This document shows positions 28,046 through 48,097 of a stretch of 60,603 nucleotides of DNA, piece after piece. Below the pieces are notes generated by a model, which did no database searches, was not told where the DNA came from, and saw only the letters and a list, made by a program, of their open reading frames with translations. A program made the position numbers and the translations under genes. Source of the stretch: Saprospiraceae bacterium (GTDB taxonomy: Bacteria; Bacteroidota; Bacteroidia; Chitinophagales; Saprospiraceae). Where the stretch lies: positions 1-60,603 of the forward strand of contig JALHLK010000029.1 in NCBI GenBank assembly GCA_022844565.1, read 5' to 3'. The number at the start of each line of letters is the position of its first letter. The first letter of the stretch is position 1.

Positions 28046-29248
28046 TTAGAAAGATTTAAATGTTTTGAAATGTGCTAAACCACTGTTTAACAGAGCTTTA
28101 TTTTTAAGGGTCGATATTTCTGGCATCACAGCAATTTTTGTCTTGATAGCAAGAGCTTCATCTACAAGCAGTTGATATTTCTGGGCGATATGACTCCAAG
28201 TATATCTTCTTTTTGCTATTTGCTCCATTTCTATTCCAATTTGTTTTAATTTTGAAGTGTATATATTATCTAATTCGTGGATAAGTGTTTCTAAACTATT
28301 AAAATAGATGGCTTTGTTTTCAGTGGTCACTTTATTGTAAGATACGCTATTGGCTATAATAGGCAATCCTAAATACATTGCTTCTACGAGGGAGGGATTT
28401 GTACCTCCGGCAGTATGTCCGTGTACGTAAAGTGAAGCATTGCTTCTAAGTACATCCAACTTCTCTTGATTGTATATTGGGTCGAGGATGTAAATATTTG
28501 CATACTTACTGTATTTTTCTTTCAGCTCAACACCATATTGGCTTTTATCCCAGTTGCCCACGATTACCAAAGGCATTATGTCTGTCAATGTAAAAGCTTC
28601 TAAAATGAGATGCACATTATTTTCTGGTTCTATTCGACAAACTTTGAAAGCATATGGATTATTTAAAAATGAATATTGCTCAATAGCTTCAGTTGTGATT
28701 GGAACTTTCATAGTGTGGTCTGCACCGTATTCTATTATTCTACTTAGTGAACCATATCTTGCGGCTGTGTAATCTTGGATAGCCTCATTATCTGATATAT
28801 CAATGTGGGAATACTTGACTGCAAGACCTTCTGCCCAAAATAGATACCATTTAGCGAGGATATTCCATTTATCTCTTTTCCACTCGATACCATCAATAGA
28901 GATAATGATTTTTTTATTGGTAAACCACTTTACAAAAGGTAATATCCAAGCACCAGCAACGCCTAATATCAATAGTACGTCAGCATAAAACAATGAATGG
29001 ATTATTGAAAGTGTATCATAAGGTATACTCTGGATACCATTTGCATCCAATGGAAGATATGTCAATTTTGCACCTTTATATTCTTTAACACGTTCTGCCT
29101 TTGCGTATTTTTTACCTGAACAGTATACGGTAAGATGGTGCTTATCGCCCAAATCTTCGATAAGGTGTTCGGTCAATGTTTCGAATCCTCCATAATTGGC
29201 AGGAACTCCTACAGTACCGATTATGGCTATTTTCTTTTTTGTTTGCAT
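28046..29248 (-). CDS. DUF1972-type glycosyltransferase
   Basis: A 400-residue GT-B enzyme. The N-terminus IGTVGVPANYGGFETLTEHL is the DUF1972 signature, a group that includes rhamnosyl-like transferases. IDGIEWKRDKW lies near residue 120, and the C-terminal half carries the GT4 donor-site motif GGTNPSLVEAMYLGLPI near 285. It probably adds the second or a later sugar to the lipid-linked unit begun by the adjacent WecA-type enzyme. The gene is 188 bases from the preceding EPS gene, and the gap contains a sigma-54 promoter and upstream activator site, so it heads its own transcription unit. Confidence 0.88.
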   Translation of the reverse strand: MQTKKKIAIIGTVGVPANYGGFETLTEHLIEDLGDKHHLTVYCSGKKYAKAERVKEYKGAKLTYLPLDANGIQSIPYDTLSIIHSLFYADVLLILGVAGAWILPFVKWFTNKKIIISIDGIEWKRDKWNILAKWYLFWAEGLAVKYSHIDISDNEAIQDYTAARYGSLSRIIEYGADHTMKVPITTEAIEQYSFLNNPYAFKVCRIEPENNVHLILEAFTLTDIMPLVIVGNWDKSQYGVELKEKYSKYANIYILDPIYNQEKLDVLRSNASLYVHGHTAGGTNPSLVEAMYLGLPIIANSVSYNKVTTENKAIYFNSLETLIHELDNIYTSKLKQIGIEMEQIAKRRYTWSHIAQKYQLLVDEALAIKTKIAVMPEISTLKNKALLNSGLAHFKTFKSF

Positions 29249-29273: not shown

Positions 29274-29292
29274 GTGCTAAAGGAGTGCCAAT
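29274..29292 (-). promoter_or_regulatory. sigma-54 promoter, EPS unit 3
   Basis: On the minus strand TTGGCAC-N4-TTAGCA has the -24 GG at 29288-29289 and the -12 GC at 29276-29277, with the required 10 bases between. The GG starts 40 bases upstream of the ATG A (29248), the same as in the promoters at 34841 and 42167. The expected transcript leader is about 16 bases. Confidence 0.85.
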
Positions 29293-29345
29293 AAGTTAAC
29301 TAATTGATATATAAGTGATTAAATTTAATTATTGTAAAATTTAAA

Positions 29346-29378
29346 TTCCATAATTTGGAATAAATGAATTTTATGGAA
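29346..29378. promoter_or_regulatory. upstream activator site, EPS unit 3
   Basis: TTCCA-N5-TGGAA (29346-29360) plus a third TGGAA at 29374-29378, written on the plus strand. It begins 98 bases upstream of the start codon at 29248 and about 82 bases upstream of the expected transcript start, where enhancer-binding proteins act. Confidence 0.8.
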
Positions 29379-29436
29379 TGATGTTTTTCAACCTGATAAG
29401 TGGCTCGAAATAATTCAAATATTCAATAACATCAAT

Positions 29437-30537
29437 TTATAGACCTTTAGGAGTTATATGCTTGATTATCTTGTTCATCTTTTCTTTCATTTGTCGATCT
29501 CTAAACACCTCCAGCCTATTCTTTGCCCTAGTGGAAAATTGGATATAACGGTCACGATCACGGAAAAGCGCGTGTAATACCTCACTTAGTTTTATCTTAT
29601 CTCGTGAATCTAATGCAAAACCCGTGACTTCATCTTCTATGACTTCTAATATTCCACCCAAAGGAGGGACAATAGCAGGTAGACCATAAGCCATACCTTC
29701 AATAATCGTAAGGCCAAAAGTTTCGACCCAACCATCAGGTCTAGATAAATTTGCGATGACATCTGCCCATTGAAAGAATGGGTGTAAGTCTTTTTGAGAG
29801 GGATATAAGACTAAGTTTTGTGGCATTTTAGTGTTTTTAAAAAAATCATCAATCTCATTTTGACTGGCATTGAGTACCAATCTAAATGAATACATCTGAT
29901 GATCACAAGCTAACTGAATGAACTCAAATACACCTTTGTAGGTCTTCAAAGAGCAAATCATCAATACATTTAGAGGCTTTTTTACAACAGATTTAGGAAG
30001 GACTTTTTCCATAAATGAGTCTTCGATGGTATTGTATACCAAATGATTTGTAACTTTGGTGATCTTGTGAGAAGACGCTACATATTCAGACACATTGATA
30101 ATGTCACTCGCTGCATATTTCACCACTTTAAATAAGAACCATTTTAAAATAGCTGGATTTACTGTACTTTCGTGAATGTGGTATATCACTCTTGCACCTC
30201 TTATTTTTCCAATGATAGCCGCTCCAAATGGCAAAACCGTATTGACATAAACAATATCGTCTTTGCTGATTTTCAAAAACATTTTGAACATCAAGATGAA
30301 TTGACTTGTTGTAAAAAACATCAAACGTAGCCACTCATTACTTTGGAATTTGTACCAACCTTTTGTAAAGATTACTCCTTGAATATCCGAAAGAAATCCT
30401 TCTTTATTTTCATTGGTATAAAGATGAACTATTTTTTTCTCACTAACCCAATGTTTGATAAGTTGGCTCAAAACTTTAGGGCTACCACTACGGTCATTTA
30501 ACAGATGGAAGGCGAATATTTTTTGCTTTGTCATCAT
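29437..30537 (-). CDS. GT4-family glycosyltransferase
   Basis: A 366-residue GT-B glycosyltransferase. The C-terminal domain carries the GT4 E-x7-E motif within ETFGLTIIEGMAYGLPAIVPPLGG near residue 290, for nucleotide-sugar binding. The N-terminal domain has IYHIHESTVNPAI near 140. It is the last gene of the unit that begins at 34815 and overlaps the upstream glycosyltransferase by four bases. Two adjacent ATGs (30537, 30534) are possible starts. The sugar and linkage cannot be inferred. Confidence 0.88.
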   Translation of the reverse strand: MMTKQKIFAFHLLNDRSGSPKVLSQLIKHWVSEKKIVHLYTNENKEGFLSDIQGVIFTKGWYKFQSNEWLRLMFFTTSQFILMFKMFLKISKDDIVYVNTVLPFGAAIIGKIRGARVIYHIHESTVNPAILKWFLFKVVKYAASDIINVSEYVASSHKITKVTNHLVYNTIEDSFMEKVLPKSVVKKPLNVLMICSLKTYKGVFEFIQLACDHQMYSFRLVLNASQNEIDDFFKNTKMPQNLVLYPSQKDLHPFFQWADVIANLSRPDGWVETFGLTIIEGMAYGLPAIVPPLGGILEVIEDEVTGFALDSRDKIKLSEVLHALFRDRDRYIQFSTRAKNRLEVFRDRQMKEKMNKIIKHITPKGL

Positions 30538-31751
30538 AGTTTGGCATATATTTTATTTAATTGTTCGCCACGTCTATCCCAATGGAATACGTCAATAAAT
30601 CTTTGTCTTGCTTCAGAACGCATTTTTGTAAGTTTTTCTGGATTGAGATAAAGCTCTTGTAAAGCATTCACTAAGTTTGCAATGGTGGTATCATGATTAT
30701 TTTGAGGGATTTTGTAACCACAATCTTCAGTGATAAACTCTCCGGGCCCCACATTGTCAAGACAAATCACAGGCAATCCAAAGGATAAAGCTTCAGGTAC
30801 CACCATACCCGCACCTTCGTGAGATGGAAACATAAACACAGAAGCCGATTTAAATTTTTGCATTAAAGCTTCTCTTTCGATCCATGAAATAAATTTCACT
30901 TGTTGGTCAATATTATATTTTAATGTTATACTCCTTAGATAATGCTCCTCAGGTCCATTTCCTACTAGTATCAAATGACATTTGACTTTGTCTTCATATG
31001 GTAAACTTCTCACCATTTTAGCGAATGATTTGATTGTGAGGTCAAAGCCTTTGAGTGGTACAAATCTACCTGCTGAGATAACGGTAAAATTTGAGGTTTC
31101 TTGATGTTCGTGCCAACCAAAATCTTGCGATGCTACAGATGGCGAAATGGAATAATTTTCTTTCAAACCTAATACTTTTGGCACAGAACTATTCATACAA
31201 AAAATATGACTCGCTTTGTTTTTAGTACGCTTCAAATTGATGGAAAAATTCCAAAAATATAATTTAACCAGCCATGTCAATCGGTCTTTTAACCAATACT
31301 TTTTGCTAAACAAACCCAAATATTGTGATGGTATCAATGGGTGATGACCTACGTGCCCCCAAACAAATGGTTTTCCCAATTTCCAAAGAAAAGAAGGCGT
31401 CCAATCATTATGAAAATTGACATTATGGGTGATATCAAACGTTAGATTTTGTTTTTTGATAAATGGTACAACACCATATTGCCACATCAGATAATAAAGC
31501 ATAGCACCTCTGCTACCTTTCTTCCAAAAACGCATCCAATAAGGAAGGTCGAAATAAAGAAATTGGATGTTTGAATATAAATCATTGGGATTTTCTTCCA
31601 TATATTTTTCAACAGCTGGACGATTATTTTCTCTCGTAAATGCGATTACTTTGTTGAATCGAGCTATTTGCATCACAAAATTCCAGCCCATACCATCTTC
31701 AGAGCCTTTGTAGGGATTCACAGCATAGGTGGTTGCTAGAATTGTCTTCAT
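30534..31751 (-). CDS. GT4-family glycosyltransferase
   Basis: A 405-residue GT-B enzyme. An N-terminal acceptor domain opens with NPYKGSEDGMGW, followed by a GT4 donor domain with SAGRFVPLKGFDLTIKSF near 230, LILVGNGPE near 265, and the E-x7-E motif in HEGAGMVVPEALSFGLPVICL near 320. The Asn-Pro...Gly-Ser-Glu start resembles transferases of polysaccharide loci in Bacteroidota. It overlaps the acyltransferase gene upstream and the next glycosyltransferase downstream by four bases each, showing translational coupling within the unit. Confidence 0.88.
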   Translation of the reverse strand: MKTILATTYAVNPYKGSEDGMGWNFVMQIARFNKVIAFTRENNRPAVEKYMEENPNDLYSNIQFLYFDLPYWMRFWKKGSRGAMLYYLMWQYGVVPFIKKQNLTFDITHNVNFHNDWTPSFLWKLGKPFVWGHVGHHPLIPSQYLGLFSKKYWLKDRLTWLVKLYFWNFSINLKRTKNKASHIFCMNSSVPKVLGLKENYSISPSVASQDFGWHEHQETSNFTVISAGRFVPLKGFDLTIKSFAKMVRSLPYEDKVKCHLILVGNGPEEHYLRSITLKYNIDQQVKFISWIEREALMQKFKSASVFMFPSHEGAGMVVPEALSFGLPVICLDNVGPGEFITEDCGYKIPQNNHDTTIANLVNALQELYLNPEKLTKMRSEARQRFIDVFHWDRRGEQLNKIYAKL

Positions 31752-32437
31752 ATCCTTGATTTTAATAGTTTAGCAGGAATGCCGCCAATCACTGAATTAT
31801 TAGGGAAAGAATGGGTAACAACTGCACCTGCTGCGATGATGCAGCCATCACCTAGGGACACACCATCTAAAATAGTTACTTTACTTCCTATCCAGCAATT
31901 ACTTCCAATTTTGATCCCTTTTCTTGATACGCCTTGTAGTCTGATAGGTAGATTTGGATTATCGTAATGATGGTTTTCTGGATGGCAGCTAAAGTATTGA
32001 CCTATGATACAATCATCGCCAATTTCCAGACCACCAGCACCACCCAAGTATGCAAACTCTCCGATCCCGACATTATTACCTATTTTGATAAATTCACCTG
32101 GCATATTAAAAGTCGTAGAAATTACAACTCTACTAAATGCCCCAATTCCTACCCGGTCACCAAAGGTTACCCCTTCTCTACCTAAGGCGCTAATGGATAC
32201 ATGGTCACCTAGTTTTAGGTATTTGCCATAACGGATATTTGGCAAATTGAAAAATTTCACGTCACTCCCTAGCAATGCCATCTTGGGATTTTTACCATAA
32301 AAAAACAACTTCATTCCTCTCAAAATACTCCAAAAGTTTGTCCATAAAAATGATAGCAAAACCAAAGAGCTTATGGATGAGTCTAATTGAAAGTTTGGAT
32401 TGCGCATTTGGATGATTCTAATTGCTATTTGCCTCAT
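31748..32437 (-). CDS. left-handed beta-helix acyltransferase
   Basis: A 229-residue hexapeptide-repeat protein. Repeats such as IGNNVGIGEFAYLGG, IGDDCIIGQY and IGSNCWIGSKVTILDGV form the left-handed beta helix, and the catalytic His lies in SCHPENHHYDNP near residue 138. The ending VIGGIPAKLLK matches O-acetyltransferases of the WbbJ/maltose-acetyltransferase group. Within this EPS unit it probably acetylates a sugar of the repeat unit. It overlaps the downstream glycosyltransferase by four bases and follows the kinase-fusion gene by two. Confidence 0.88.
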   Translation of the reverse strand: MRQIAIRIIQMRNPNFQLDSSISSLVLLSFLWTNFWSILRGMKLFFYGKNPKMALLGSDVKFFNLPNIRYGKYLKLGDHVSISALGREGVTFGDRVGIGAFSRVVISTTFNMPGEFIKIGNNVGIGEFAYLGGAGGLEIGDDCIIGQYFSCHPENHHYDNPNLPIRLQGVSRKGIKIGSNCWIGSKVTILDGVSLGDGCIIAAGAVVTHSFPNNSVIGGIPAKLLKSRI

Positions 32438-32439
32438 TT

Positions 32440-34815
32440 TTATATAAGTTTAGCTTGGATGGACTTTGAAACCAAATGAAGGGTTCTGGCCAGGTGAATA
32501 TTTTCTATAGCGAGGTATTGTCCAATTCGTTTTTTGTCTAAATCATTAAACAAACTGATGTAATCGTGCGTCAATTTTTTGATAGTTTGCTCATCCAATT
32601 CTTTTTTTCTTGAAAGAATAGTTTGTGCATCAGCATACAAAAAGAAGTTTAATGTTGGTTGAAAAAGCAGTTTATATCCACCTCTGAGAAGCCATTTTGG
32701 TAATGAGATATTACTACGTAAACTATCGTTGATAAAGTCAAAATAGTAACGATCGTATAAAACTACATGCCCGCGCAACACATGTTTTAAATAGATATAA
32801 AATTGGCCAATAATATAGTCGGTATAATAATATGCAAACCTCAATAATGAACTTATCGTGCTCTTGTTATTGCCTTGTCGAGGGAGGTTTTGAGCAGCGT
32901 ATTTTTCAGCTTCAGATTTTCCTTTTGTCCATGCACTTAATATTGGTAATAGTGAAGGTCTGTGTCGAATAACAACTACTTTTTTACGTAATTTTTTCTC
33001 CATTTCTCTCTTCGTCTTTTCGATGATAGTAGATTTACCTGCACCATCTACACCACTAAAAGTGATGACTAAGCCATTTTGCTGAAATATGTTATTTATA
33101 ATATCAAAAGCATAAGTGAGTGTGTTTATTAAAGACATCACACCTTTGTTACTTTGTAGCTTTTTTATTTCTTTCAAAAGAGCTTTTGTATTGGGCTTTT
33201 TGTCATGAAATTGGACGTTAATCAGATCAGCCAATTTTTTATTTTTTAATTTTATGACATCGACGTAAGCGTCAAAACGTGATGGAATGGAAGCATTATT
33301 TAGACCATAAAACAAGCCGATAAACTGAATGGTATCCATTAAGTTGACCTTTTTGATTCCATTACTACTGACGTAAGCATCATTCATCATTTCATTTACA
33401 GACATGTACTCGATGTTCTTCCTTTTCAATTGGTGAATACAATCAACGCTAAGCAACTCATGGGAATTGGTTAGTATCATCAACCTGGTCATTGCAAAAC
33501 CACGATTGACTTTTAATTTATCAAATAATGGATGTTCGCGAAGAAATTGAATTAAATTTTTTGCTATTGGTTTTGACATAAGTAGGTCCAAATCAGAATA
33601 GGCAGAAATTTTCTCAGGCTGATCTTCGATTTTTAACCCTGCATATTTTTGAAAATAAAGATGGTCAAATATATCCAGTATGACAAGTTCTCTTTGATTG
33701 ATTTTGGAACTTAAAACGTCACTTAAAGCAAGATTCCAAGTATTTAAGAGCCAATGAATTTGTGTGTGCCATACACTTTGCTTTTCATAAATTTCTAGAT
33801 AATTAAGGACATTGACTAAAAGATAAAAAGATAAGTATTTTTGGACGTCATTAGTGGGTATAAAGGTTTGTGATTTGGTTTCAATTTCTTTTTTTATGGC
33901 TTTCCAACTTTTCTGTTGAGTCAACACTCCATTTTGTATTATAAAATGAAAAAAATCAAAACCTAAAGGATAATTGACAGAAGATAATTCCCAGTCGTAT
34001 ATGTATAGTTCTTCATGTTGATTTGTAAAAATATTCCAAGGTGTGAAGTCACAATGAGCTAAGTGTGTGTCAACAATACTGCCTATGAGTGATTGATGAA
34101 GAATTTCTAATTTTTTTATGATTCCAGAAGGCAACTTTTTCCTTGCGTTTTTAAGAGCTTGTATTCTTGAACCTATGTTATGCTTTTGATCAAAATCGTC
34201 ATAAGCATATTCGCAAGCATTTACTTTGGCTAAAGATTGAAGAAATAGGTTATGTTGCTGACTCCATTGGTTTTTTCGTATTGAAAATGATTCATTTTCT
34301 TGGAATGTTACGAAGTTGTTATCACCATTTACTAATTCTGGAAAATGAAAATTTAAGTCCGTCCCTTTTTTTAATATATCAATAGCTGCTATCTCGTTAT
34401 TGATTAATTTTTGGCTTTGCGGTGTGATAGCAATTTTGGTAAAAAATCCCTTTTTAGTATATTCCTCCTTTTGGTATAAAATATATTTTTGATTTGGTCC
34501 AACTGTCCCAGTAAAAAGTGCCCATTCATTTTGATTCATCAATATCGTATCCGCTAAGACTACTTTGCTTGATTTAAATACCAATTTTTGGATTCTTAAA
34601 GCAAATATCAATTTGATCAACAAGGCAAACACGTTGGCTTTTAAACCTTGCACATGATAGAACTTTAGAAAGTATGGACTTTTGCAGCTGGAAGGCCATA
34701 TCCATCTTATACTACCGTCAGGATTAGATAAGTATTGTACAGTTACGACTTCAGATTCTGTGCGATTTACCGATTTTGAAACTAAGTTGTTGAAAATATT
34801 TTGAATGTTGTGCAT
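32440..34815 (-). CDS. APH-like / nucleotidyltransferase-like / thymidylate-kinase-like fusion
   Basis: About 791 residues. I start at the ATG at 34815 rather than an upstream TTG (34839), because the sigma-54 promoter and activator site sit at exactly the spacing used by the two other EPS promoters. Three parts are visible. An APH/choline-kinase-like domain has HCDFTPWNIF and IYDWELS near 260-285. A nucleotidyltransferase-like region has YSDLDLLM and LLSVDCIH near 410-470. A thymidylate-kinase-like P-loop domain has FSGVDGAGKST near 590 and a DRYYFD segment near 700. The three activities could phosphorylate or activate a sugar or lipid precursor; the reaction is unknown. It heads the second EPS transcription unit. 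Confidence 0.8.
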   Translation of the reverse strand: MHNIQNIFNNLVSKSVNRTESEVVTVQYLSNPDGSIRWIWPSSCKSPYFLKFYHVQGLKANVFALLIKLIFALRIQKLVFKSSKVVLADTILMNQNEWALFTGTVGPNQKYILYQKEEYTKKGFFTKIAITPQSQKLINNEIAAIDILKKGTDLNFHFPELVNGDNNFVTFQENESFSIRKNQWSQQHNLFLQSLAKVNACEYAYDDFDQKHNIGSRIQALKNARKKLPSGIIKKLEILHQSLIGSIVDTHLAHCDFTPWNIFTNQHEELYIYDWELSSVNYPLGFDFFHFIIQNGVLTQQKSWKAIKKEIETKSQTFIPTNDVQKYLSFYLLVNVLNYLEIYEKQSVWHTQIHWLLNTWNLALSDVLSSKINQRELVILDIFDHLYFQKYAGLKIEDQPEKISAYSDLDLLMSKPIAKNLIQFLREHPLFDKLKVNRGFAMTRLMILTNSHELLSVDCIHQLKRKNIEYMSVNEMMNDAYVSSNGIKKVNLMDTIQFIGLFYGLNNASIPSRFDAYVDVIKLKNKKLADLINVQFHDKKPNTKALLKEIKKLQSNKGVMSLINTLTYAFDIINNIFQQNGLVITFSGVDGAGKSTIIEKTKREMEKKLRKKVVVIRHRPSLLPILSAWTKGKSEAEKYAAQNLPRQGNNKSTISSLLRFAYYYTDYIIGQFYIYLKHVLRGHVVLYDRYYFDFINDSLRSNISLPKWLLRGGYKLLFQPTLNFFLYADAQTILSRKKELDEQTIKKLTHDYISLFNDLDKKRIGQYLAIENIHLARTLHLVSKSIQAKLI

Positions 34816-34840
34816 AATATCATTTTTATAGCATGACAAT

Positions 34841-34859
34841 AGGCAAAGGGTTTGCCAAT
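34841..34859 (-). promoter_or_regulatory. sigma-54 promoter, EPS unit 2
   Basis: On the minus strand ATTGGCAAACCCTTTGCC has the -24 GG at 34855-34856 and the -12 GC at 34843-34844, 10 bases apart. The GG starts 40 bases from the ATG A at 34815. It is among the closest of the three to the YTGGCA-N-TTGC consensus. Confidence 0.87.
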
Positions 34860-34912
34860 GATATAATGTATTGATAATGAGTTACATAATGTGTATTTAA
34901 AATTTGGTAATA

Positions 34913-34945
34913 TTCCAAAATATGGAAAAAAATTAAATTTTGGAA
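34913..34945. promoter_or_regulatory. upstream activator site, EPS unit 2
   Basis: TTCCA-N5-TGGAA at 34913-34927, with a third TGGAA at 34941-34945 (N13). It begins 98 bases from the start codon. The spacing is identical to the sites at 29346 and 42239. Confidence 0.8.
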
Positions 34946-34967
34946 GGAAAAAGTATTGTTTGAATAT

Positions 34968-35000
34968 TTTGTTTACAGTAAACTGTTTACTGTAAACAAA
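34968..35000. promoter_or_regulatory. 33-bp double palindrome
   Basis: TTTGTTTACAGTAAAC and its exact complement flank a single T (34984). Each half itself contains the palindrome GTTTAC-N-GTAAAC. It lies 18 bases upstream of a small HTH ORF and is probably that gene's operator. Confidence 0.65.
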
Positions 35001-35018
35001 AAGTTATGTATTTGCATC

Positions 35019-35159
35019 ATGAAGCCTAGGGATAAGATTTTAAAAATACTTCACAAGAATGATCAGATTAGCATACATGAAATGGCTAATGAGCTTTCTG
35101 TATCCAGATTAGCTTTCACAAGAAGTTTCAAAAGTTTTGAGGTGATTTCAGAACTTTAG
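35019..35159 (+). pseudogene. truncated winged-HTH regulator
   Basis: A 46-residue ORF whose first 37 residues (MKPRDKILKILHKNDQ, then ISIHEMANELSVSRLAFT) read as a DeoR/MarR-like helix-turn-helix. The chain then changes character and stops inside the 3' end of the convergent Wzy gene, so the effector part is missing. A strong double palindrome precedes it. It is probably the broken start of a self-regulated gene that once occupied this spot between EPS units; a functional mini-regulator cannot be excluded. Confidence 0.45.
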
Positions 35160-36459
35160 CACTACTGTATCCTTCCACCCTGCCCGTCCTTACCAAATGT
35201 AATCGCTGCCTTATCGTCAATATATTCCCTGGTCTAAAAGAAATATACATAATGACCAACTGGTAAAATAGAATGCCATAGTTGGATTCTCCAAAAATAC
35301 CAAATTCAGTAAAGGAATTGATTATCAAAGGTATCAATAGACAAAAGAGCATCAATTTTTTCTCGGCATTCTCCAGTAAAATGCCTCTAATAGTAAAAAT
35401 CATCTGAAACAAAACAATTGTAATACCAATGAGCCCTAGATTCATCAAAACCTGCATAAAAGTATTGTGAGTCATTTTACCAGGGTAGGTATGTGCACTT
35501 TGAAAATATTCTTTGTAGTCGATCCGCATAAATCCAAAGCCTAATAAAGGTTCTCTAGGCAATCCCTCGTTGATCAATGCCTGCCAGAAGGGCAATCTCC
35601 CTGTAAGCGTCAGTACTTCCTCCATTCTTTCCGGGTCACCATCTTTGAGTACTACTTTGTAAATCGCAATGGGGGCCACCATCATCATCACAACAATGGC
35701 CGCGATGGCAAATTTCTTTTGTTCAGATTGCAAAACATGAAATCCAATGATCAATAGTGCCCCAATCAATGAGGATCGCGAACCAGTGGCAAAAAGACCA
35801 TAAAATAATATGAGTAGTTTGAAAATTGTCCACCATCTGTGATAATTTCTTCTAATATCAAACATCAGTCCTGCGACGCCTACACCCGCCAACATCCCGA
35901 GTTCATTGGGATTCATCATATAGCCACCCAGCCGTGCCTCCTCTCCACCATGTGTCAAACGATAAAAAACATCAGGATTGACATACATTCCGATCACAAA
36001 GACCAAAATAAGTACATAAGCACTGTTGCCTAATAAATTGTACAATCTGATAGGGTGGTCAGGAAAAAACTGATCCAATAAATACAGACTTTTGATAAAA
36101 TAGAAACAAAAGACTAAGGTTTGAGATGTCATAAACCATTGTAAAGCACTGTATCCGACATTGGTACTCCACATAAACGAGGCTAAACCAAGGAGTAAGT
36201 AAATTCCATAAAAAGACATAGAAAGTACATTGTTGGTCTTTAGATTGTCTGCTGCTCCATAGTTAATGATATTGCGATATACATACCAAGATGATAGCAA
36301 CATACCCATCCTTCCAACTACTTTGATAGCTCTTGTAATGTTGATATTTTCACTCCATGTAAAAAAACAGGCAGTCATTAAAAGAAGGATCAACATCAGT
36401 TGCCAATTGATCTTTTTAAGAAAAATACTGTGATCCTGATCTTTTAATTCTATCTTCAT
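35128..36459 (-). CDS. Wzy/O-antigen-ligase-like polymerase
   Basis: A 443-residue protein with about ten to twelve membrane helices. The cytoplasm-adjacent segment FATGSRSSLIGALLIIGFHVL near residue 225 is the Wzy_C/O-antigen ligase signature, followed by a large periplasmic loop (about 270-330) with GFGFMRIDY and AHTYPGKMTHNTFMQVLMNLG, the conserved H-N-x-x-L region. It should polymerise flipped repeat units in the periplasm. It is the last gene of EPS unit 1, joined directly to the upstream glycosyltransferase (adjacent stop and start). Its 3' end overlaps the opposite-strand HTH fragment. Confidence 0.88.
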   Translation of the reverse strand: MKIELKDQDHSIFLKKINWQLMLILLLMTACFFTWSENINITRAIKVVGRMGMLLSSWYVYRNIINYGAADNLKTNNVLSMSFYGIYLLLGLASFMWSTNVGYSALQWFMTSQTLVFCFYFIKSLYLLDQFFPDHPIRLYNLLGNSAYVLILVFVIGMYVNPDVFYRLTHGGEEARLGGYMMNPNELGMLAGVGVAGLMFDIRRNYHRWWTIFKLLILFYGLFATGSRSSLIGALLIIGFHVLQSEQKKFAIAAIVVMMMVAPIAIYKVVLKDGDPERMEEVLTLTGRLPFWQALINEGLPREPLLGFGFMRIDYKEYFQSAHTYPGKMTHNTFMQVLMNLGLIGITIVLFQMIFTIRGILLENAEKKLMLFCLLIPLIINSFTEFGIFGESNYGILFYQLVIMYISFRPGNILTIRQRLHLVRTGRVEGYSSAKVLKSPQNF

Positions 36460-37557
36460 TTATGTATACAATTCATCATATTTTTCAACCAAAATTGGCC
36501 AGTCAAAGACTTTTTCTAACATTGTCCTTGCACCGCTGACGTAATTTACAGCCTGGTTTCTAGCATATGCTTTACATAGCTTATCCATTGCTGACATCAA
36601 TTGTGATACATTATTATTATCAATAGAAATGCCAGCTTGGTATTGGGTAACATATGCTGCCACATTAGTAGCCTTACTCACGATAGAAGGCACACCAAAA
36701 GATGCCGCTTCAAGAACAGACGTCGGTAAGCCCTCATTCCTTGAAGGGTGAGCAAATACATGCATTTGGCTGATCAATTCATCCTTTTCCTTACCAAATT
36801 TTTTACCCCACAATACCACGTTATTTATTTTTTTTTCAAGAATATATTTTTCTATAAAATCACGGCCTTCTCCATCTCCAATAATCCATAATTTGGAATT
36901 TCCTTCTGTTTTTTGGAATTGATAAAAAGCTTCCATCAATAGGTCAAGACCCTTGGTTTGCGTATCTAGCCGACCAACAAAACCGATGGTAAAATCTCTA
37001 TTTTTTAAGACGTTTACCTCTGTAACATTTTGGTCGAAACCATATGGCAGGAGAAATGACTTAACAGAGGGATAGATTTTTTCCAAACCTTCTACTTCAC
37101 TATTTCCGATAGAGTGGACCTTGTGTACATGTTTTAGAATTGTTTTTTCGAAGGCATGAAAATATACTTTTTTTATCCATTGACTTCGTTGCATAGCGAC
37201 TTCATTGTATGCTCCGTGAGGTGTGATGACAAACTTGATTTGATGCTTTGCAAATAATTTTGCCAATGAACTAAATAAAGGAATCCATCCCCCATGGAGA
37301 TGATAAGTAGCCGCATTATTTTTTAAAATAGCTTCCTTTAATTGGTTACTAATACGAAATGGCATTTTCTCTGATTTGAACAATTCTGTATGAAATATTC
37401 GATTGGGATAATCATGTATTGGGTATTCAGTAATACCCCAAACACTTACTTTTCGACCTGCTTTTGTCTGCTCAGAAGCCAGATTGAAAACCACCTTATT
37501 AACACCATTAAGCCTTTCTGGATTGGCTTTGCCTAGTACGATATGTACGATTTCCAT
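36460..37557 (-). CDS. GT4-family glycosyltransferase
   Basis: A 365-residue GT-B enzyme. The N-terminal domain starts MEIVHIVLGKANPERLNGVN and contains ITPHGAYNEVAMQRSQW near 110-130. The donor domain has IGFVGRLDTQTKGLDLLMEAF near 190, WIIGDGEGRD near 225 and the E-x7-E motif in HPSRNEGLPTSVLEAASFGVPSI near 280. It overlaps the flippase gene by 25 bases, a strong sign of coupled translation. The sugar is unknown. Confidence 0.88.
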   Translation of the reverse strand: MEIVHIVLGKANPERLNGVNKVVFNLASEQTKAGRKVSVWGITEYPIHDYPNRIFHTELFKSEKMPFRISNQLKEAILKNNAATYHLHGGWIPLFSSLAKLFAKHQIKFVITPHGAYNEVAMQRSQWIKKVYFHAFEKTILKHVHKVHSIGNSEVEGLEKIYPSVKSFLLPYGFDQNVTEVNVLKNRDFTIGFVGRLDTQTKGLDLLMEAFYQFQKTEGNSKLWIIGDGEGRDFIEKYILEKKINNVVLWGKKFGKEKDELISQMHVFAHPSRNEGLPTSVLEAASFGVPSIVSKATNVAAYVTQYQAGISIDNNNVSQLMSAMDKLCKAYARNQAVNYVSGARTMLEKVFDWPILVEKYDELYT

Positions 37558-38753
37558 ATATTAATATTTTTTAAATGTAGAATTAAACTCCAATATGCCA
37601 TTAGGATTATTTGAGAAACTATTAGCCCATATATGACCCCTTGTAAACCAAATGTGAATATTAGATAATGTGATGTGATAAGTGAAAAACCCAAATTAAT
37701 TAAATAAGCATAGAAAAAGTGATCATTGATTTGTAAAGTTCTAATTAAGAAACGTAGGGGCTGACTTAGAAAGATAAAAATATACAAAACACTATAGCCT
37801 TGTACAACGTATGCAAAGTCTACGTATTGGTTTCCACCCGAAATCACTAAAATTGGTTTTGCCAGTAGTAATGTAATAACCAATAAGGGTAAGAAAATGA
37901 GTCCCATTTTATGATTTGTATCTTTTAAATAATGGAGTGCTGAGGGTAGACTAAGTCTTAACTTTTCGGCAGTTTGAGGTAATACATAGTTTTCAAATGT
38001 TTGTAACAATACATTTAAAACTCCAAATAATGATTGAGCTAACCGCAATGCAGCTAGGGCTGTTGTTCCAACATATATTCCTGCCGCTACGACAAAAAGA
38101 TTACCAGCCCACCATTGACTTAAAGCACTAAGAAAAAGCCACTTTCCTTCTTTAATATGAGTCCTAAAGTATTTGAGGACATCTTCCCTTTCAATGAAAA
38201 ATGGCTTTAAAAAAGCGACAATCAGAATCAAAGAAAAGCTATACCCATAAGCAAAAACCGTAAGAATTTGTTCGAGGTCTTGGATGTTTTGAATCATTGA
38301 TATAGCCAGCGTCGTGATCAAATATATAGAAGTAAAGAGGTCAAGAATAATGGTATGTACCGTTTTGTCCAATGACAATAATACTCTTCTCCCAAAATCA
38401 TTAATGATAAAGCCAAATATGAATAGATAAGACCCAACGGATACCTCGTAAAGGTTAAAGCATGTATTAATAGAAATAGAAAGGGTAAGCATAACTCCCA
38501 TCAAAAAAAATTGCCAAAAGACCAAGAATGAAATATAAGAGGATGTCTTTTGAATAGCAACTTGAAAAATCTGAATACCCCAAGCACTTAAAGCACTAAT
38601 ACCAAGATAAACTATTAAGATATAGGCAGCATATTGCCCAAATGAGGAGGTGTCAAGGTGTCGGGCAAGCATAATAGTCATGAGAAAATTTGTTCCACTT
38701 ACGATCATTTGGTCTGCTAAAACTTGAATTTTTCGATCCTTTACCCAATTCAT
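37533..38753 (-). CDS. Wzx-type polysaccharide flippase
   Basis: A 406-residue membrane protein with about twelve helices, in the pattern of the MOP flippase superfamily: VKDRKIQVLADQMIVSGTNFLMTIMLARHLDTSSFGQYAAYILIV at the N-terminus is the usual Wzx helix 1-2 region. It should flip undecaprenyl-linked repeat units across the inner membrane for the Wzy polymerase. It overlaps the Wzc-like gene by four bases and the next glycosyltransferase by 25. Confidence 0.88.
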   Translation of the reverse strand: MNWVKDRKIQVLADQMIVSGTNFLMTIMLARHLDTSSFGQYAAYILIVYLGISALSAWGIQIFQVAIQKTSSYISFLVFWQFFLMGVMLTLSISINTCFNLYEVSVGSYLFIFGFIINDFGRRVLLSLDKTVHTIILDLFTSIYLITTLAISMIQNIQDLEQILTVFAYGYSFSLILIVAFLKPFFIEREDVLKYFRTHIKEGKWLFLSALSQWWAGNLFVVAAGIYVGTTALAALRLAQSLFGVLNVLLQTFENYVLPQTAEKLRLSLPSALHYLKDTNHKMGLIFLPLLVITLLLAKPILVISGGNQYVDFAYVVQGYSVLYIFIFLSQPLRFLIRTLQINDHFFYAYLINLGFSLITSHYLIFTFGLQGVIYGLIVSQIILMAYWSLILHLKNINIWKSYISY

Positions 38754-40939
38754 CTGATAATCTTATTTTTGATGGCAAAAAATGTGTTTTTTATAGTTCT
38801 GACTATTTCCAATATAAAACTAGGATTGTATCCTACTCGATTTATAGCAAAATGTACATTTGGTAATTTGAATTCTTGCTGTATGATATCGACTTCGAAT
38901 ACTTTTTTTGCAGGGGTCAATCTAGTATCGATACAAACCACATTTAGATCAGCTATCGCCATCAAAGCCAAAGTGAAGGCTTCACCAAAATTTGAATTGA
39001 TTACCATTGTTTGATCAAAATATTGACACTGGTCTTCCAATACTTGCTGTATTTCTTCCGTTGTCTTGTAGACCATTTTCGTACTACATAAGGTTAACAT
39101 TGAGCTGTTCGGTTCTATGTTTTTTATCGACCAAAAATCGTCTCCTTCTACGTTTTCCTCAATTTCGACATTTAACAATTTTCGCCCTTGTTTTTTTAAT
39201 GTTTGGATCACTTCGTCTGAAATGAATTTTGTTGCGTGCTTTTTATTAAAACTTGTAAAACAAATTATACCATTTGGTTGTAAAAGTTCCTTTACCTGCC
39301 ATTGAGTCAATGTGGTAAGAAAAAAGCTTGCCTTTTCAGAAGGCTTTTTCAATTTGGGTACGGCTGCAATAATAGGAATCATACTACTCGATTCAACACT
39401 TGAGATATCATTAACCCTAGCTTTCATGCTGTGTACAATAAAAATCAACATCATCGCCCCTAACATTCCTAGTATAACTGCGACTCCCTTTATGATAGTT
39501 CTATTTGGAGAAACAGGCATTTTACTTATACTTGCTGGTGTGATAATTCTATGAAAGGCAACTTTTGCAGCTTTGGCAATCTCGGCCTCAATTTTCTTTT
39601 GATTCAAAAAGTTATAAGACTGTTGATAGATTTCAAACTCCCTGTTCAGAATGGTCATAATTCGTTCTTTCTCAGGTACTGTGATGAATACTTTTTCTGC
39701 TTCGTCGATATCAAAGACTAAATTATTGTATTTTGATTCAAGATTTTTCTTTGTATTGGTTATACTTTCTCTTAGATAAGAGGATATATCGTCTATTTTG
39801 TGGTCTATGGTGATCACTCGCTCATCTTTAGGTGTATATTCCAGAAGTAAGTCTTTTTTCTCCGATTGCAATTGTTTGATTTTTTTGATCATTTCTGTAG
39901 ATAGCAAGTCTGTAAAAGCTTCAAAATTTGGTGCTAAATCGAGGAAATTATCTTTTCCTTTTTGCATATAAACATCCAATTCCTTAATAGCATCTAAGCT
40001 CATTTTTAAATTAGTTTGCTGTATCTTTAATTGGGATATTTTTCTTAGATCAGTCTCGGTCTCTTGTCGAATGTTGGTAATGTCTTCTTTTTCTCGATAG
40101 TTTAAGATATCGGCTTCTGATCCTGAAAGCTTACCGCTTATCTCTGCGATTCTTTTGTTTAAAAAATCAACAGTTACATTCGCCGCTCCAAATTTTGTTT
40201 CGATGTAGTCTTCAATATAGGCCTCTGCTAATGCGTTAGGAAACAAAGAAGCCTTCTCAGGATGTGCCGATTTGTAGCTGATTCTGATGATAGGCACATC
40301 CTTATCGACGGAAGAAACATCGAGATTAGTCAATATTTCACTTATCAATTTTTCTGGGCTTCTGAATGTGATAGTGTATTTATCAAAGATATTGAGATTT
40401 GGCTTTTCGGTTACTAGTTTTTTGTTGAGTGCCACAAAGAGTCTAGTATCACCTATCGTAATGGTGTCACCCATTTTACATTTATGCAAAAATCCAGCTG
40501 GGTCTGTAATCGTGTAATTGATTGTATCCATTACATGGATGAGAAAAGTTCTATCGTAATGCAATGGGTCTATAGTCACACTTTTTATAAAAAGGGGTGC
40601 GTCATGAAAAAGTTCTGTATTCTTTAAGCTCCCTTGTCTTACTAAGATAGATTGAAAAGGGACTTTGTCAAGTGCCTTCTTTATAATGGTATGTGACTTT
40701 ATCAATTCAATTTCAGCTTGTATTTTTTGAGTATTTGCAAAAACATCTAAATCTTTGAAGAGGTTGCTGTTGGGCACGCCTTGATGAAGATCAGCTAAAC
40801 TAAGTTTTGCAGTACTCTCATACATCGGAGTCACGTAAGACAAGTACTTTGAAGCCAATAAATAAGCTAAGACCATTGCACCAACAATGATAATCCATCC
40901 TCGAAATAGGGGTTTAATAAAATTGAATTGATTACCCAT
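38750..40939 (-). CDS. Wzz/Wzc-type chain-length protein with degenerate kinase domain
   Basis: A 729-residue protein. Membrane helices lie near residues 14-32 and 478-500, flanking a periplasmic Wzz domain with a long coiled coil (about 270-440, with the GumC-type segments). The C-terminal cytoplasmic part (about 520-729) has the size and layout of a bacterial tyrosine-kinase domain. However, the Walker A position reads ICFTSFNKKHATKFIS instead of a GEGKST-type loop; the A' and B aspartates are also absent, and no Tyr-rich tail is seen. It therefore appears to be a pseudokinase that still pairs with the Wza exporter. It starts 24 bases after the Wza gene. Confidence 0.85.
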   Translation of the reverse strand: MGNQFNFIKPLFRGWIIIVGAMVLAYLLASKYLSYVTPMYESTAKLSLADLHQGVPNSNLFKDLDVFANTQKIQAEIELIKSHTIIKKALDKVPFQSILVRQGSLKNTELFHDAPLFIKSVTIDPLHYDRTFLIHVMDTINYTITDPAGFLHKCKMGDTITIGDTRLFVALNKKLVTEKPNLNIFDKYTITFRSPEKLISEILTNLDVSSVDKDVPIIRISYKSAHPEKASLFPNALAEAYIEDYIETKFGAANVTVDFLNKRIAEISGKLSGSEADILNYREKEDITNIRQETETDLRKISQLKIQQTNLKMSLDAIKELDVYMQKGKDNFLDLAPNFEAFTDLLSTEMIKKIKQLQSEKKDLLLEYTPKDERVITIDHKIDDISSYLRESITNTKKNLESKYNNLVFDIDEAEKVFITVPEKERIMTILNREFEIYQQSYNFLNQKKIEAEIAKAAKVAFHRIITPASISKMPVSPNRTIIKGVAVILGMLGAMMLIFIVHSMKARVNDISSVESSSMIPIIAAVPKLKKPSEKASFFLTTLTQWQVKELLQPNGIICFTSFNKKHATKFISDEVIQTLKKQGRKLLNVEIEENVEGDDFWSIKNIEPNSSMLTLCSTKMVYKTTEEIQQVLEDQCQYFDQTMVINSNFGEAFTLALMAIADLNVVCIDTRLTPAKKVFEVDIIQQEFKLPNVHFAINRVGYNPSFILEIVRTIKNTFFAIKNKIIR

Positions 40940-40963
40940 TTTTTTTTTTCTATTTTGATTATT

Positions 40964-41707
40964 TTAAAATGCACCCATGAATATGGCAGCAGAGGTTAAC
41001 GCGGTGGTAAAAGGAATGATGGTAGAGATCCTTTTATCAAATTCTTTATATTTTTTTGAAGGTACAACCACTACATCACCAGGATGTAGGTTGATATTTC
41101 TTTGCAACAAGTCACCATCTTTGGTGAGATCGATATTAGCAATATGCACATGCTCACCAACCTGCCTTAGCACTTTTACAAACTTTGGATTAGCATAAAA
41201 CTCTAATCCTTTACATCTCGTGATCATTTCCAATAAAGTATTGCGTTCTTTATCGACCGTTATGACTTGTGGATCTCTTACTTCACCCAAAACGGTGATT
41301 TCGCGGTTAAGGACTTTTATATCAATCACAGGTACTTTTATCCATTCACTATAAATGGTCTTTAAGGTATCTTTAAGCTGAATGATCGTCATTTTCTCTA
41401 CGTTAAATGTACCAATTTTTGGGATTTCAATGTTTCCATATGCATCGATCATGAGCCATTTACCATATACTTCATTGGAGTTGTAGATGCCATATGTACT
41501 ACCGACACTTATCTCGTCTTGACCCCAAATACTTATGGTGATTTTGTCGTCTTTACGAAGATGGTATTGATATGTTGCATTATTCCAAAATATGGTATCT
41601 AATGCAGCTATGGAATTGTCGGCAGATTTGTTGTGAAATATGTTGGATGTTTTACATGACGAAAGACCAACTACTATCATTGCTATTAGATAAATACTAG
41701 ATCTCAT
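40964..41707 (-). CDS. Wza-type polysaccharide export lipoprotein
   Basis: A 247-residue protein with a lipoprotein signal (lipobox GLSSC, Cys 18). Residues 50-150 match the polysaccharide-export domain (YQYHLRKDDKITISIWGQDEISVG; WLMIDAYGNIEIPKIGTFNVEKM). Residues 155-225 match a SLBB domain (REITVLGEVRDPQVITVDKERNTLLEMI; NINLHPGDVVVVPSKKYKEFDK). A hydrophobic C-terminal helix ends it (TTALTSAAIFMGAF), the outer-membrane pore segment. It should form the export channel for the polymer, docking with the Wzc-like protein encoded next. Confidence 0.9.
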   Translation of the reverse strand: MRSSIYLIAMIVVGLSSCKTSNIFHNKSADNSIAALDTIFWNNATYQYHLRKDDKITISIWGQDEISVGSTYGIYNSNEVYGKWLMIDAYGNIEIPKIGTFNVEKMTIIQLKDTLKTIYSEWIKVPVIDIKVLNREITVLGEVRDPQVITVDKERNTLLEMITRCKGLEFYANPKFVKVLRQVGEHVHIANIDLTKDGDLLQRNINLHPGDVVVVPSKKYKEFDKRISTIIPFTTALTSAAIFMGAF

Positions 41708-41709
41708 AT

Positions 41710-42141
41710 TTATATAAATTGGAAAATTGATTTTAAAATAGAAGTTTTACGTTCTTGTAAAATCTCTTTGATATCATCAATTTTATATAAGGTCGCCCTT
41801 ATGTTCTCTTCCATTTTATCATCTTTACGGATATAATCAAATGCTCCATGTTTTAATGTAGCTACAGCAGTATCTATATCTTCCTGAGCGGATACCATGA
41901 CTACAAAAATATTAGGATTGTACCTTTTGATTTTTCTTAGTGTCTCATATCCATTGTAGATATCCATTTGATGATCAAGAAATATGACATCAGGGTTTTG
42001 ATGAATCTCATTTAGACAATCTACTCCACTTTCAAAACAAAAGATACTTTCGAAACCCTCTTGTGTAAGAAACTGCTTCATGATCTCAAGATGAAAGAGA
42101 TCGTCGTCTACCAAAAAAACTGATTTAAATTTGTGTTGCAT
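41710..42141 (-). CDS. stand-alone receiver-domain response regulator
   Basis: A 143-residue receiver domain with no output domain. The acidic triad lies in VDDD near 12-14 and the phospho-acceptor Asp in VIFLDHQMD near 56; VSAQED supplies the Ser and YIRKDD the Lys. Its second half is strikingly like the receiver of the sigma-54 activator at 48108-49460 (VSAQEDIDTAVATLKHGAFDYIRKDD against ISAQEEIAVAVELLKAGARDYIIKDD). It is the first gene of EPS unit 1, two bases from the Wza gene. It could act as a phosphate sink or feedback partner for the same kinase. Confidence 0.88.
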   Translation of the reverse strand: MQHKFKSVFLVDDDLFHLEIMKQFLTQEGFESIFCFESGVDCLNEIHQNPDVIFLDHQMDIYNGYETLRKIKRYNPNIFVVMVSAQEDIDTAVATLKHGAFDYIRKDDKMEENIRATLYKIDDIKEILQERKTSILKSIFQFI

Positions 42142-42166
42142 AATATTCTATTTTTTGAAACAGTAT

Positions 42167-42185
42167 ATGCGAATGGTGAGCCAAC
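42167..42185 (-). promoter_or_regulatory. sigma-54 promoter, EPS unit 1
   Basis: On the minus strand AGTTGGCTCACCATTCGCAT has the -24 GG at 42181-42182 and the -12 GC at 42169-42170, with 10 bases between. The GG starts 40 bases upstream of the ATG A at 42141. Confidence 0.83.
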
Positions 42186-42238
42186 TTCATACTATGCAGA
42201 TAATCAACAAGATAGACTTTATGATATTAATAAGTATT

Positions 42239-42271
42239 TTCCACAAATTGGAAAAATATATATTATTGGAA
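42239..42271. promoter_or_regulatory. upstream activator site, EPS unit 1
   Basis: TTCCA-N5-TGGAA at 42239-42253, and a third TGGAA at 42267-42271 (N13). It begins 98 bases upstream of the start codon at 42141. Confidence 0.8.
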
Positions 42272-42609: not shown

Positions 42610-43443
42610 TTACTCATACCTAATCATTTTGGCCAAATCATGAAAATATTGTTTAGACCAAATGTTAAGTTCAGAGGGGTTTTGGATAAATCGCTCTATA
42701 TCAACTAATGCCATTTTTATGTCTGTTTTTGAGATTTTGTCAATAATAATTTTATTCAGAAGCTCCTTATTTAAGGTAGTACCTTTATTTAAATGATTAC
42801 TTTGTATTGCTCTTTCCTGTAGATGTCTAAGATTTAAAGGCGTTCCTCTCTTAATAAACCATTCTAAATCATACCAATCTCTGCCTTTTACACGGGTTTT
42901 CCATTCTCTATATAAAAAAGCGTGCATCTTTCCTGCAAATAGATAAGATTCTTTAAATGTGTTGATATAAAAAGAAAAAGGCCTTAAAATTAACTTAGGT
43001 TCCGTTTCAAAAAACATGGGAGGTTTTCTATCTATTTCTATTTTGATTTTGATAGAAGCTGAATTATTTTCTTGTACTGATATAATATTCCATTCTGTAT
43101 TATCCTTCAAAAAAGCGGATTGGACATCATTGGGATGTACCTTATCCTTTACTGTAAGATCCACGGCAAGCCCATGCAGATGACATTCTTTCTCGATATA
43201 TGTAAAATAATCTTTAAGTGAAAAATTTGGATCAGAATAGTTTAATGAAAAATCAATATCTTCAGAGAATCTTGGCAAACCATATAACATTCTTAGAGCA
43301 GTTCCTCCGTAATAAGATGCTTTTGAAAAAAAATCACTTCTGGAAAGGCCAGACAATGTGATGTATTGAATTATCTCTCTTTTTGCTTTTAGAGATTCAT
43401 CCTGATTGGTTACCATATATGAATTATACCATTCTTTTATCAT
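42610..43443 (-). CDS. abiEii: AbiEii-type nucleotidyltransferase toxin
   Basis: A 277-residue nucleotidyltransferase. The active-site block YYGGTALRMLYGLPRFSEDIDFSL (about residues 43-67) has the GG-T and D-x-D positions of the AbiEii/MenT family, and GRDWYDLEWFI near 195 is the downstream family motif. Known members transfer pyrimidine nucleotides to tRNA and block growth. It lies one base after the AbiEi-like antitoxin gene, so the pair is a type IV toxin-antitoxin or abortive-infection module. It sits between the signalling operon and the EPS operon without interrupting either. Confidence 0.88.
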   Translation of the reverse strand: MIKEWYNSYMVTNQDESLKAKREIIQYITLSGLSRSDFFSKASYYGGTALRMLYGLPRFSEDIDFSLNYSDPNFSLKDYFTYIEKECHLHGLAVDLTVKDKVHPNDVQSAFLKDNTEWNIISVQENNSASIKIKIEIDRKPPMFFETEPKLILRPFSFYINTFKESYLFAGKMHAFLYREWKTRVKGRDWYDLEWFIKRGTPLNLRHLQERAIQSNHLNKGTTLNKELLNKIIIDKISKTDIKMALVDIERFIQNPSELNIWSKQYFHDLAKMIRYE

Positions 43444-43444
43444 T

Positions 43445-47561: not shown

Positions 47562-48097
47562 GATACTTTTAAAATTTCGTGTGTACTTTGACCACTTAGC
47601 GATTCCACATGATCTGTGGTTACTTGTGTATTAAAAAATTTGCCCAATCCAGACATAAGACCATAAACAAATGCAGTCAGGCCAATTCTTTTGGAAAAAT
47701 AATGCAAATGCAAAGAGTTGTCTTCAACTTCAGAAATTTTAAATTCGGGTGGCGTCAATTTTGGGTACATCATCATTACTCTATTGTGAAAAGATGGAAG
47801 ATTGAGTAAGAATGTTTTAAAGTTATCGCCACCGCTTTCTAGTAAGTATCCGTAGTGATTTTTACCTGTATGCAAGATCCACCATTCACCAAAAAGACTC
47901 AATACTTCGTCAACTGTCACTCCTAATTCAGTAGCTATAGTTCCCGCCAAAGTAAAGGTAATATCGTCATCATAACTTTCACTACTGATAAAATATTCGA
48001 TATTAATATTGCTTTTTACTTTAATATCTTCCCATTTTTCCTGACCATAATTGGCAACTACCAATTCTTCAATAGATTTGTTTACAATTCCGTACAT
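47549..48097 (-). CDS. H-NOX heme nitric-oxide sensor
   Basis: A 182-residue HNOB-family protein. The heme ligand is His104 (PSFHNRVMMMYPKLTPPEF), the heme-propionate contact is the Y-x-S-x-R motif (Tyr133, Ser135, Arg137 in HYFSKR), and conserved Pro residues follow the His. Bacterial H-NOX proteins bind NO and inhibit or relieve partner kinases, often in biofilm control. Here it lies between the sigma-54 activator gene (10 bases upstream) and the HNOBA hybrid kinase (13-base overlap), so the three are one co-translated signalling unit. The length is typical of stand-alone H-NOX. Confidence 0.93.
   Translation of the reverse strand: MYGIVNKSIEELVVANYGQEKWEDIKVKSNINIEYFISSESYDDDITFTLAGTIATELGVTVDEVLSLFGEWWILHTGKNHYGYLLESGGDNFKTFLLNLPSFHNRVMMMYPKLTPPEFKISEVEDNSLHLHYFSKRIGLTAFVYGLMSGLGKFFNTQVTTDHVESLSGQSTHEILKVSWEN

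Follow-up and report, generated by a model that had tools for sequence, protein, structure and literature searches.

Sigma-54 promoters and a shared upstream palindrome at the exopolysaccharide locus of a Saprospiraceae bacterium: a candidate activator circuit in Bacteroidota

We examined a 60,603-nt stretch of a Saprospiraceae bacterium genome (contig JALHLK010000029.1; hereafter the window), whose minus strand carries three units of exopolysaccharide (EPS) genes, each preceded by a sigma-54 promoter (P1, P2, and P3) and, further out, by a palindromic upstream site (UAS1, UAS2, and UAS3; Table 1). Genes for an NtrC-type sigma-54 activator, an H-NOX (haem-nitric oxide-binding) protein, and a hybrid histidine kinase lie upstream of unit 1 on the same strand. 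The EPS gene content is broadly as described in a first-pass annotation made from the DNA letters; only its “Wzx” at 37533-38753 has to be qualified, since the product has no Pfam or NCBIfam hit and is named by position only.

Table 1. Promoters, upstream sites, and genes of the EPS locus in the window.
Feature	Position	Strand	Basis
P1 sigma-54 promoter, TTGGCTCACCATTCGCA	42168-42184	-	motif scan
P2 sigma-54 promoter, TTGGCAAACCCTTTGCC	34842-34858	-	motif scan
P3 sigma-54 promoter, TTGGCACTCCTTTAGCA	29275-29291	-	motif scan
UAS1 palindrome, TTCCAATTTGTGGAA	42239-42253	-	pattern scan
UAS2 palindrome, TTCCATATTTTGGAA	34913-34927	-	pattern scan
UAS3 palindrome, TTCCAAATTATGGAA	29346-29360	-	pattern scan
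IHF-like site of P1 (one mismatch, on other strand)	42202-42214	-	consensus scan
IHF-like site of P2, TATCAATACATTA, exact	34864-34876	-	consensus scan
IHF-like site of P3, TATCAATTAGTTA, exact	29297-29309	-	consensus scan
NtrC-type sigma-54 activator (REC-AAA-C-terminal helix)	48108-49460	-	
H-NOX protein, His104 and YxSxR	47549-48097	-	
Hybrid histidine kinase (HNOBA match, PAS, GAF, HisKA, HATPase, REC, Hpt)	44244-47561	-	
RR1, single-domain response regulator, first gene of unit 1	41710-42141	-	
Wza-like export protein	40964-41707	-	
Wzc/chain-length-like protein	38750-40939	-	
Possible flippase, Wzx by position only	37533-38753	-	
Glycosyltransferase (unit 1)	36460-37557	-	
Wzy-type polymerase, end of unit 1	35128-36459	-	
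KAPkin, large protein with C-terminal P-loop kinase-like region, first gene of unit 2	32440-34815	-	
Hexapeptide acyltransferase	31748-32437	-	
Glycosyltransferase (unit 2)	30534-31751	-	
Glycosyltransferase, end of unit 2	29437-30537	-	
GT_DUF1972 glycosyltransferase, first gene of unit 3	28046-29248	-	
WecA-type initiating transferase	26970-28043	-	

All three promoters have the form GG-N10-GC in a TGGCA/TTGC context, and the first G of the GG (42182, 34856, and 29289) is separated from the A of the downstream ATG (42141, 34815, and 29248) by 40 bases in each case, as the first-pass annotation had reported. In the window, TGGC-N7-TNGC matches at nine places, where 3.28 would be expected, and none of 100 shuffles reached nine; the six matches other than P1-P3 all lie within open reading frames (ORFs). 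At about three times expectation, the promoter motif alone suggests sigma-54 control but is not conclusive. RpoN, whose presence the annotation had left to be checked, is encoded once in the genome (a PF04552 match, E 1.1e-46). A sigma-70 promoter scan stayed near chance (80 found; shuffle mean 70.0), and Rfam gave no match in the window or in the stretch L079. We rejected a genome-wide count of TTGGC-N7-TTGC (63 sites vs 4 for the control) as a measure of the regulon, since at least nine of the sites come from one dispersed repeat. This repeat has at least nine copies in the window's own genome, with similar flanks around TTGGCGACATTTTTGC (L079, L080, L084, L091, L092, L094, L096, L101, and L102); it resembles sigma-54 sites and inflates motif counts. 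In addition, contig C44 of G000 contains four sigma-54-like matches at 477-478-base intervals (5810-7258), suggesting a tandem repeat.

The upstream sites are perfect copies of TTCCA-N5-TGGAA, all ending at the same distance from their promoter, exactly 56 bases before the T of TGGC. They are the only three such palindromes in the window (0.23 expected; no shuffle of 100 reached three), and all stand at promoters. Because each of P1-P3 thus has a perfect palindrome that the first-pass annotation had not recorded (it likewise lacked the IHF-like sites and, at 44244-49460, the genes of the activator and the sensor), we regard these promoter motifs as beyond doubt.

A search of 60 relatives with the perfect palindrome and strict TGGC-N7-TNGC returned only G025 besides the window; since the -12 C and sometimes the palindrome differ in relatives, later searches did without the -12 box. 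The activator search in relatives also yielded orthologs, most of L060-L074 among them, whose fetched stretch contains no EPS units, so neighborhoods were fetched instead by H-NOX (40 of 78 matches) and by KAPkin (80 of 128 loci kept from an alignment scan of named genomes). The KAPkin loci are titled Saprospiraceae, Cyclobacteriaceae, Hymenobacter, Pedobacter, Flavobacterium, Lewinella, and others, with two of the 80 titled outside the phylum (Arcobacter and Hyphomicrobiales metagenome-assembled genomes, L247 and L248). The same gene orders recur (RR1-Wza-Wzc-Wzx-GT-Wzy; KAPkin-hexapeptide-GT-GT; GT_DUF1972-WecA; GT, glycosyltransferase), and palindromes precede the first gene. As a permutation control we used 120 related loci (2.24 Mb; duplicate contigs L177, L191, and L211 dropped), which contain 93 copies of TTCCA-N5-TGGAA, whereas each of 29 other orders of the half-site occurs at most 11 times; TTGGC lies at 40-95 bases from the palindrome 59 times, and other orders of TTGGC at most 21 times. 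With the three duplicates kept, a perfect palindrome is found upstream of RR1 in 18 of 40 regions, of KAPkin in 35 of 80, and of GT_DUF1972 in 24 of 62, rising to 27, 46, and 39, respectively, when up to one mismatch is allowed. At least one perfect palindrome is present in 41 of the 80 KAPkin loci, and 69 of the 82 palindromes in these loci (duplicates again included) stand upstream of RR1, KAPkin, or GT_DUF1972 at no more than 460 bases, the other 13 being elsewhere. Separately, L186 has a second palindrome (21032-22000) between an RR1-like gene on the minus strand and an H-NOX gene on the plus strand, apart from the EPS units.

From these loci we collected 64 promoters, chosen on a palindrome with at most one mismatch and TTGGC at 48-90 bases, with duplicate promoters dropped. 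Positions that played no part in this choice are conserved: an A follows TTGGC in 58, giving the TTGGCA of the window, and the -12 G is present in 54. The distance between palindrome and TTGGC falls into clusters about one helical turn apart (28 promoters at 52-57 bases, 10 at 64-68, 14 at 72-76, 11 at 83-86, and one at 48), with a Rayleigh nR2 of 26.0 at periods 9.5 and 10 and 19.5 at 10.5 (nine periods were tried, and the values are inflated by related sequences). The distance to the ATG, which the first-pass annotation had taken as the telling feature, behaves differently: in the close relatives L176 and L136, the KAPkin promoter lies 42 bases from the ATG when counted from the T of TGGC, as in the window, and distances near 40 recur, yet over all palindrome-promoter pairs the distance varies widely. 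We therefore rejected the ATG spacing as a general main signal; the conserved spacing is that from the palindrome to the -24 box, and the ATG distance, like the -12 C, is a local feature.

We also checked the spacers for IHF-type bend sites, using a consensus that we take to be WATCAANNNNTTR. An exact match lies between palindrome and promoter in 14 of 56 less redundant promoters, against none in the 56 equal stretches upstream of the palindrome and a mean of 0.6 in dinucleotide shuffles; with one mismatch allowed, 40 of the 56 spacers contain a site vs 4 of 56 control stretches and a shuffle mean of 9.8. Among these 40 spacers, the site starts 15-19 bases before TTGGC in 12 and 27-31 bases before it in 20. 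At the sequence level, this is the architecture of a sigma-54 system: an upstream activator site, helically phased, with a predicted bend site between it and the promoter.

The product of 48108-49460 has the make-up of an NtrC-type activator, with a receiver domain (REC), an AAA domain containing GAFTGA and Walker motifs, and a C-terminal helix; it has no HTH_8 Pfam hit, and the DNA-binding helix was read from the alignment. It is one of four strong sigma-54 activator genes in the genome and the only one in the window. In most members of the family, the helix reads GKS-K/T-IY-X-M, and the residue X varies with the half-site of the palindromes in the same loci. Where X is N (15 loci), TTCCA palindromes number 33 and are spread over 14 loci, with TTCCC absent; where it is K (25 loci), 20 TTCCA palindromes in 10 loci and again no TTCCC; where it is R (20 loci), 4 TTCCA palindromes in 3 loci vs 8 TTCCC in 6, the TTCCC ratio being the highest of all half-sites. 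With relatedness ignored, Fisher tests give a p of 1e-7 when sites are counted and 8e-5 when loci are counted. The table dropped the duplicates L177 and L191 and the classes G (L194 and L199) and S (L205); class K keeps both L147 and L211, though they are stretches of one contig. TTGGC is nearby in 5 of the 8 TTCCC palindromes, at 53, 55, 55, 75, 77, and 83 bases.

By position, the palindrome-promoter pattern is strongly tied to the activator gene. The long pattern TTCCA-N5-TGGAA-N(50-78)-TTGGCA has matches in 119 of 396 genomes, and an activator ortholog is present in 112 of 396. Among the matches listed, 20 of 67 palindrome-promoter hits (in 14 genomes) fall within 20 kb of the activator gene, where 0.68 would be expected; the count covers the 40 genomes with the pattern, the activator, and listed matches (G142, G144, G149, and G165 have no listed match). 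Nine activator-proximal stretches from eight genomes include four with EPS units (L286-L288 and L290, from three genomes), two with an RR1-like gene (L291 and L294), and three with neither (L289, L292, and L293). L292 (G069) and L293 (G228) have an activator-FIST pair with palindromes on its flanks, and EPS-unit matches are absent from the fetched stretch. In five genomes of the same genus, the best activator identities are 35-37% (E about 1e-77 to 1e-72); with no close ortholog in these five, the locus is accessory in the genus.

The H-NOX protein matches PF07700 (E 5.9e-48) and has His104 as proximal histidine and YFSKR as its YxSxR motif. The receiver Asp, GAFTGA, and Walker motifs of the activator, the H-box, REC Asp, and Hpt His of the kinase, and the His104 and YxSxR of H-NOX are all kept, and we take these residues to have their usual receiver, AAA, kinase, Hpt, and haem roles. 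H-NOX is present in 75 of 396 genomes of the order. Among the 40 neighborhoods fetched by H-NOX, EPS genes, activator, H-NOX, and kinase occur together in L136, L147, L157, and L173, and part of the set in L164; L059, fetched by its activator, also has the set. Other loci differ at this point: a FIST protein is the product of the gene that follows the activator in Neolewinella (L234) and Pedobacter (L206), and in the Hymenobacter loci examined a PAS-rich hybrid kinase takes the place of H-NOX or FIST. FIST is a domain of the NosP nitric oxide sensors, according to passages of PMC12570481. Overall, the 46 KAPkin-fetched loci with an activator comprise 9 with H-NOX, 12 with FIST, 16 with neither, and 9 that are cut off.

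An AbiEii-type gene and a 211-residue partner, the latter without a Pfam hit, lie between the kinase and UAS1 (42610-44080) and may be a type IV toxin-antitoxin pair. L136, a close relative, has nothing comparable at this place: about 200 bases separate the end of its kinase match from RR1, so the pair looks inserted, leaving UAS1 and P1 unharmed.

Taken together, sigma-54 probably drives the EPS locus as one set, as the first-pass annotation had proposed, and the promoters, the RpoN gene, and the conservation in related loci support this; the enhancer, with its phasing and its co-variation with the linked activator, is the stronger evidence. All-or-none switching and a leader of about 16 bases, also proposed there, are predictions. 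We think it quite probable that the three EPS units form one sigma-54 regulon run by the activator encoded at 48108-49460 through TTCCA-N5-TGGAA, a bend site, and an H-NOX/kinase input. On the promoters, palindromes, phasing, gene linkage, and half-site co-variation, all plain in the sequence, we infer the following steps. The signal would enter through H-NOX, which would control the hybrid kinase, and phosphate would pass from His to Asp to Hpt and on to the Asp of the activator. The phosphorylated activator would bind the palindrome centered 64 bases upstream of the -24 GG; an IHF/HU-type protein site would bend the intervening DNA so that the activator contacts the RpoN-RNA polymerase and opens the -24/-12 promoter with ATP. 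Since the same palindrome stands at each promoter, one activator would serve all three units. In related loci, a FIST (NosP-type) protein would replace H-NOX, or a PAS-rich kinase would act with neither.

Several observations weigh against this reading. The 5.59 Mb genome holds only 5 copies of TTCCA-N5-TGGAA vs 8 of a backwards control, and the two copies outside the window lie within ORFs; the signal is thus in the placement of the palindromes, not in their number. Many upstream regions in related loci have no site even with one mismatch allowed (13 of 40 for RR1, 34 of 80 for KAPkin, and 23 of 62 for GT_DUF1972). The first-pass annotation had named non-conservation of the GG/GC dinucleotides in close relatives as refuting, and for the -12 C this partly applies, the base after the -12 G being C in 20, T in 20, A in 23, and G in 1 of the 64 promoters. 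The phasing and co-variation statistics ignore relatedness. Finally, the long pattern occurs in 44 of 112 genomes with the activator vs 75 of 284 without it, and this weak tie by presence implies that most of the distant matches are probably chance.

The input is where another explanation survives best. The activator and palindromes may control EPS while H-NOX and FIST sense haem or another ligand, or act elsewhere, so that nitric oxide is not the signal; we consider this quite possible, though we lean the other way. The 16 of 46 activator loci with neither sensor count against our reading, since they mean that nitric oxide is not a universal input; the PAS-rich kinase of Hymenobacter points in the same direction, and a title cited in PMC12570481 reports haem detection by NosP. 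On the other side, the haem-binding residues of H-NOX are kept, and two unrelated families that include nitric oxide sensors adjoin the activator at the same place, which is why we favor nitric oxide as most likely the signal. NO-bound H-NOX proteins inhibit their partner kinases; if this precedent holds, nitric oxide would turn EPS off.

It is also conceivable, though unlikely, that the promoters are real and that another protein, either a repressor or one of the three other strong activators, reads the palindrome, the linked activator having other targets. The genome does carry four strong activator genes, the binding of the palindrome by the linked one is a prediction from sequence, and co-occurrence at the genome level is weak. 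Against this, the half-site changes together with the helix residue of the linked activator, the listed hits crowd around its gene far beyond expectation, and the phased upstream position with IHF-like sites suits an enhancer better than a repressor site. It is hardly credible that AT-rich DNA produced the three promoter-like sites, with their equal spacing, by chance: the promoter pattern is only about threefold over expectation and the long pattern gives many scattered matches in other genomes, but the count and placement of the palindromes, the permuted controls, the gene-specific placement in relatives, and the co-variation all speak against it.

The nearest known parallel lies in Proteobacteria, where PrsK/PrsR act with sigma-54 at PEP-CTERM genes that adjoin or are otherwise tied to EPS loci (Haft 2006, PMC1569441; Aquincola, PMC9850573); RpoN dependence of one PEP-CTERM gene was shown in Aquincola (PMC9850573). 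In the passages on that system, an EPS-linked NtrC-type response regulator and kinase, an upstream motif, a spacer, and a -24/-12 promoter were likewise recognized by comparative genomics; however, its targets are mainly single PEP-CTERM genes and its kinase is transmembrane, whereas here the targets would be EPS biosynthesis units and the partners H-NOX or FIST. The activator scores 358.9 bits against TIGR02915 (PrsR), below the cut-off of 502.6, and so does not classify as PrsR. Sigma-54 activators are also described as controlling EPS clusters in Vibrio vulnificus (DctD2; PMC9040800) and Burkholderia cenocepacia (NtrC, PMC5491218; BerB, PMC5552954), but in different phyla and with dicarboxylic acids, nitrogen, and cyclic di-GMP (c-di-GMP) as inputs. 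As in the H-NOX and NosP (FIST) nitric oxide systems outlined in parts of PMC12570481, a haem sensor is encoded beside a histidine kinase and biofilm would be affected; unlike the output regulators with c-di-GMP-type domains described there, the output here would be a sigma-54 activator with a mapped candidate site. Within the phylum, the Flavobacterium psychrophilum SM4 work reports a -24/-12 motif, with one promoter/operon mutagenized, and its passages concern chaperones, envelope stress, gliding, and exported proteins, without the EPS units or enhancer site found here (PMC9723704). Francke et al. (2011) tied sigma-54 broadly to EPS, and its main text contains none of the strings “bacteroid,” “cytophaga,” or “flavobacteri”; the passages of a 2025 sigma-54 survey name polysaccharide export for Myxococcia and other functions for Bacteroidota. 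The circuit is described in no paper that we found among the open-licence PubMed Central literature.

Other features were observed in and around the locus. Between Wzy and KAPkin, upstream of UAS2, there is a long near-perfect hairpin (34967-35001; 16 pairs, loop of 3) that is terminator-like on the plus strand. The window also encodes a YadA-head and Peptidase_S74 protein (21839-23791); in L075, an S74 protein (13870-15927) adjoins glycosyltransferases and that locus's palindrome-promoter. Two further products (49776-51092 and 56829-60434) are beta-lactamase-fold and choice-of-anchor I proteins with type IX secretion-type C-terminal sorting domains.

The boldest reading, of a circuit found widely in Bacteroidota, seems to us evenly balanced. 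In it, gas sensors of two unrelated families (H-NOX or FIST/NosP) would act through a hybrid kinase on a dedicated sigma-54 activator and so on all units of a conserved EPS locus, the enhancer half-site having co-evolved with the recognition helix, and nitric oxide would control the matrix by direct transcription and not only through c-di-GMP. The locus offers a concrete EPS circuit for free-living Bacteroidota, with a site, an activator, a conserved operon structure, and a candidate signal, and it can be tested in culturable genera such as Pedobacter, Neolewinella, and Hymenobacter. For enhancer-binding proteins, the natural co-variation of TTCCA and TTCCC supplies a ready test of specificity; and if the nitric oxide input is true, biofilm matrix synthesis would be tied to nitric oxide by a direct transcriptional route.

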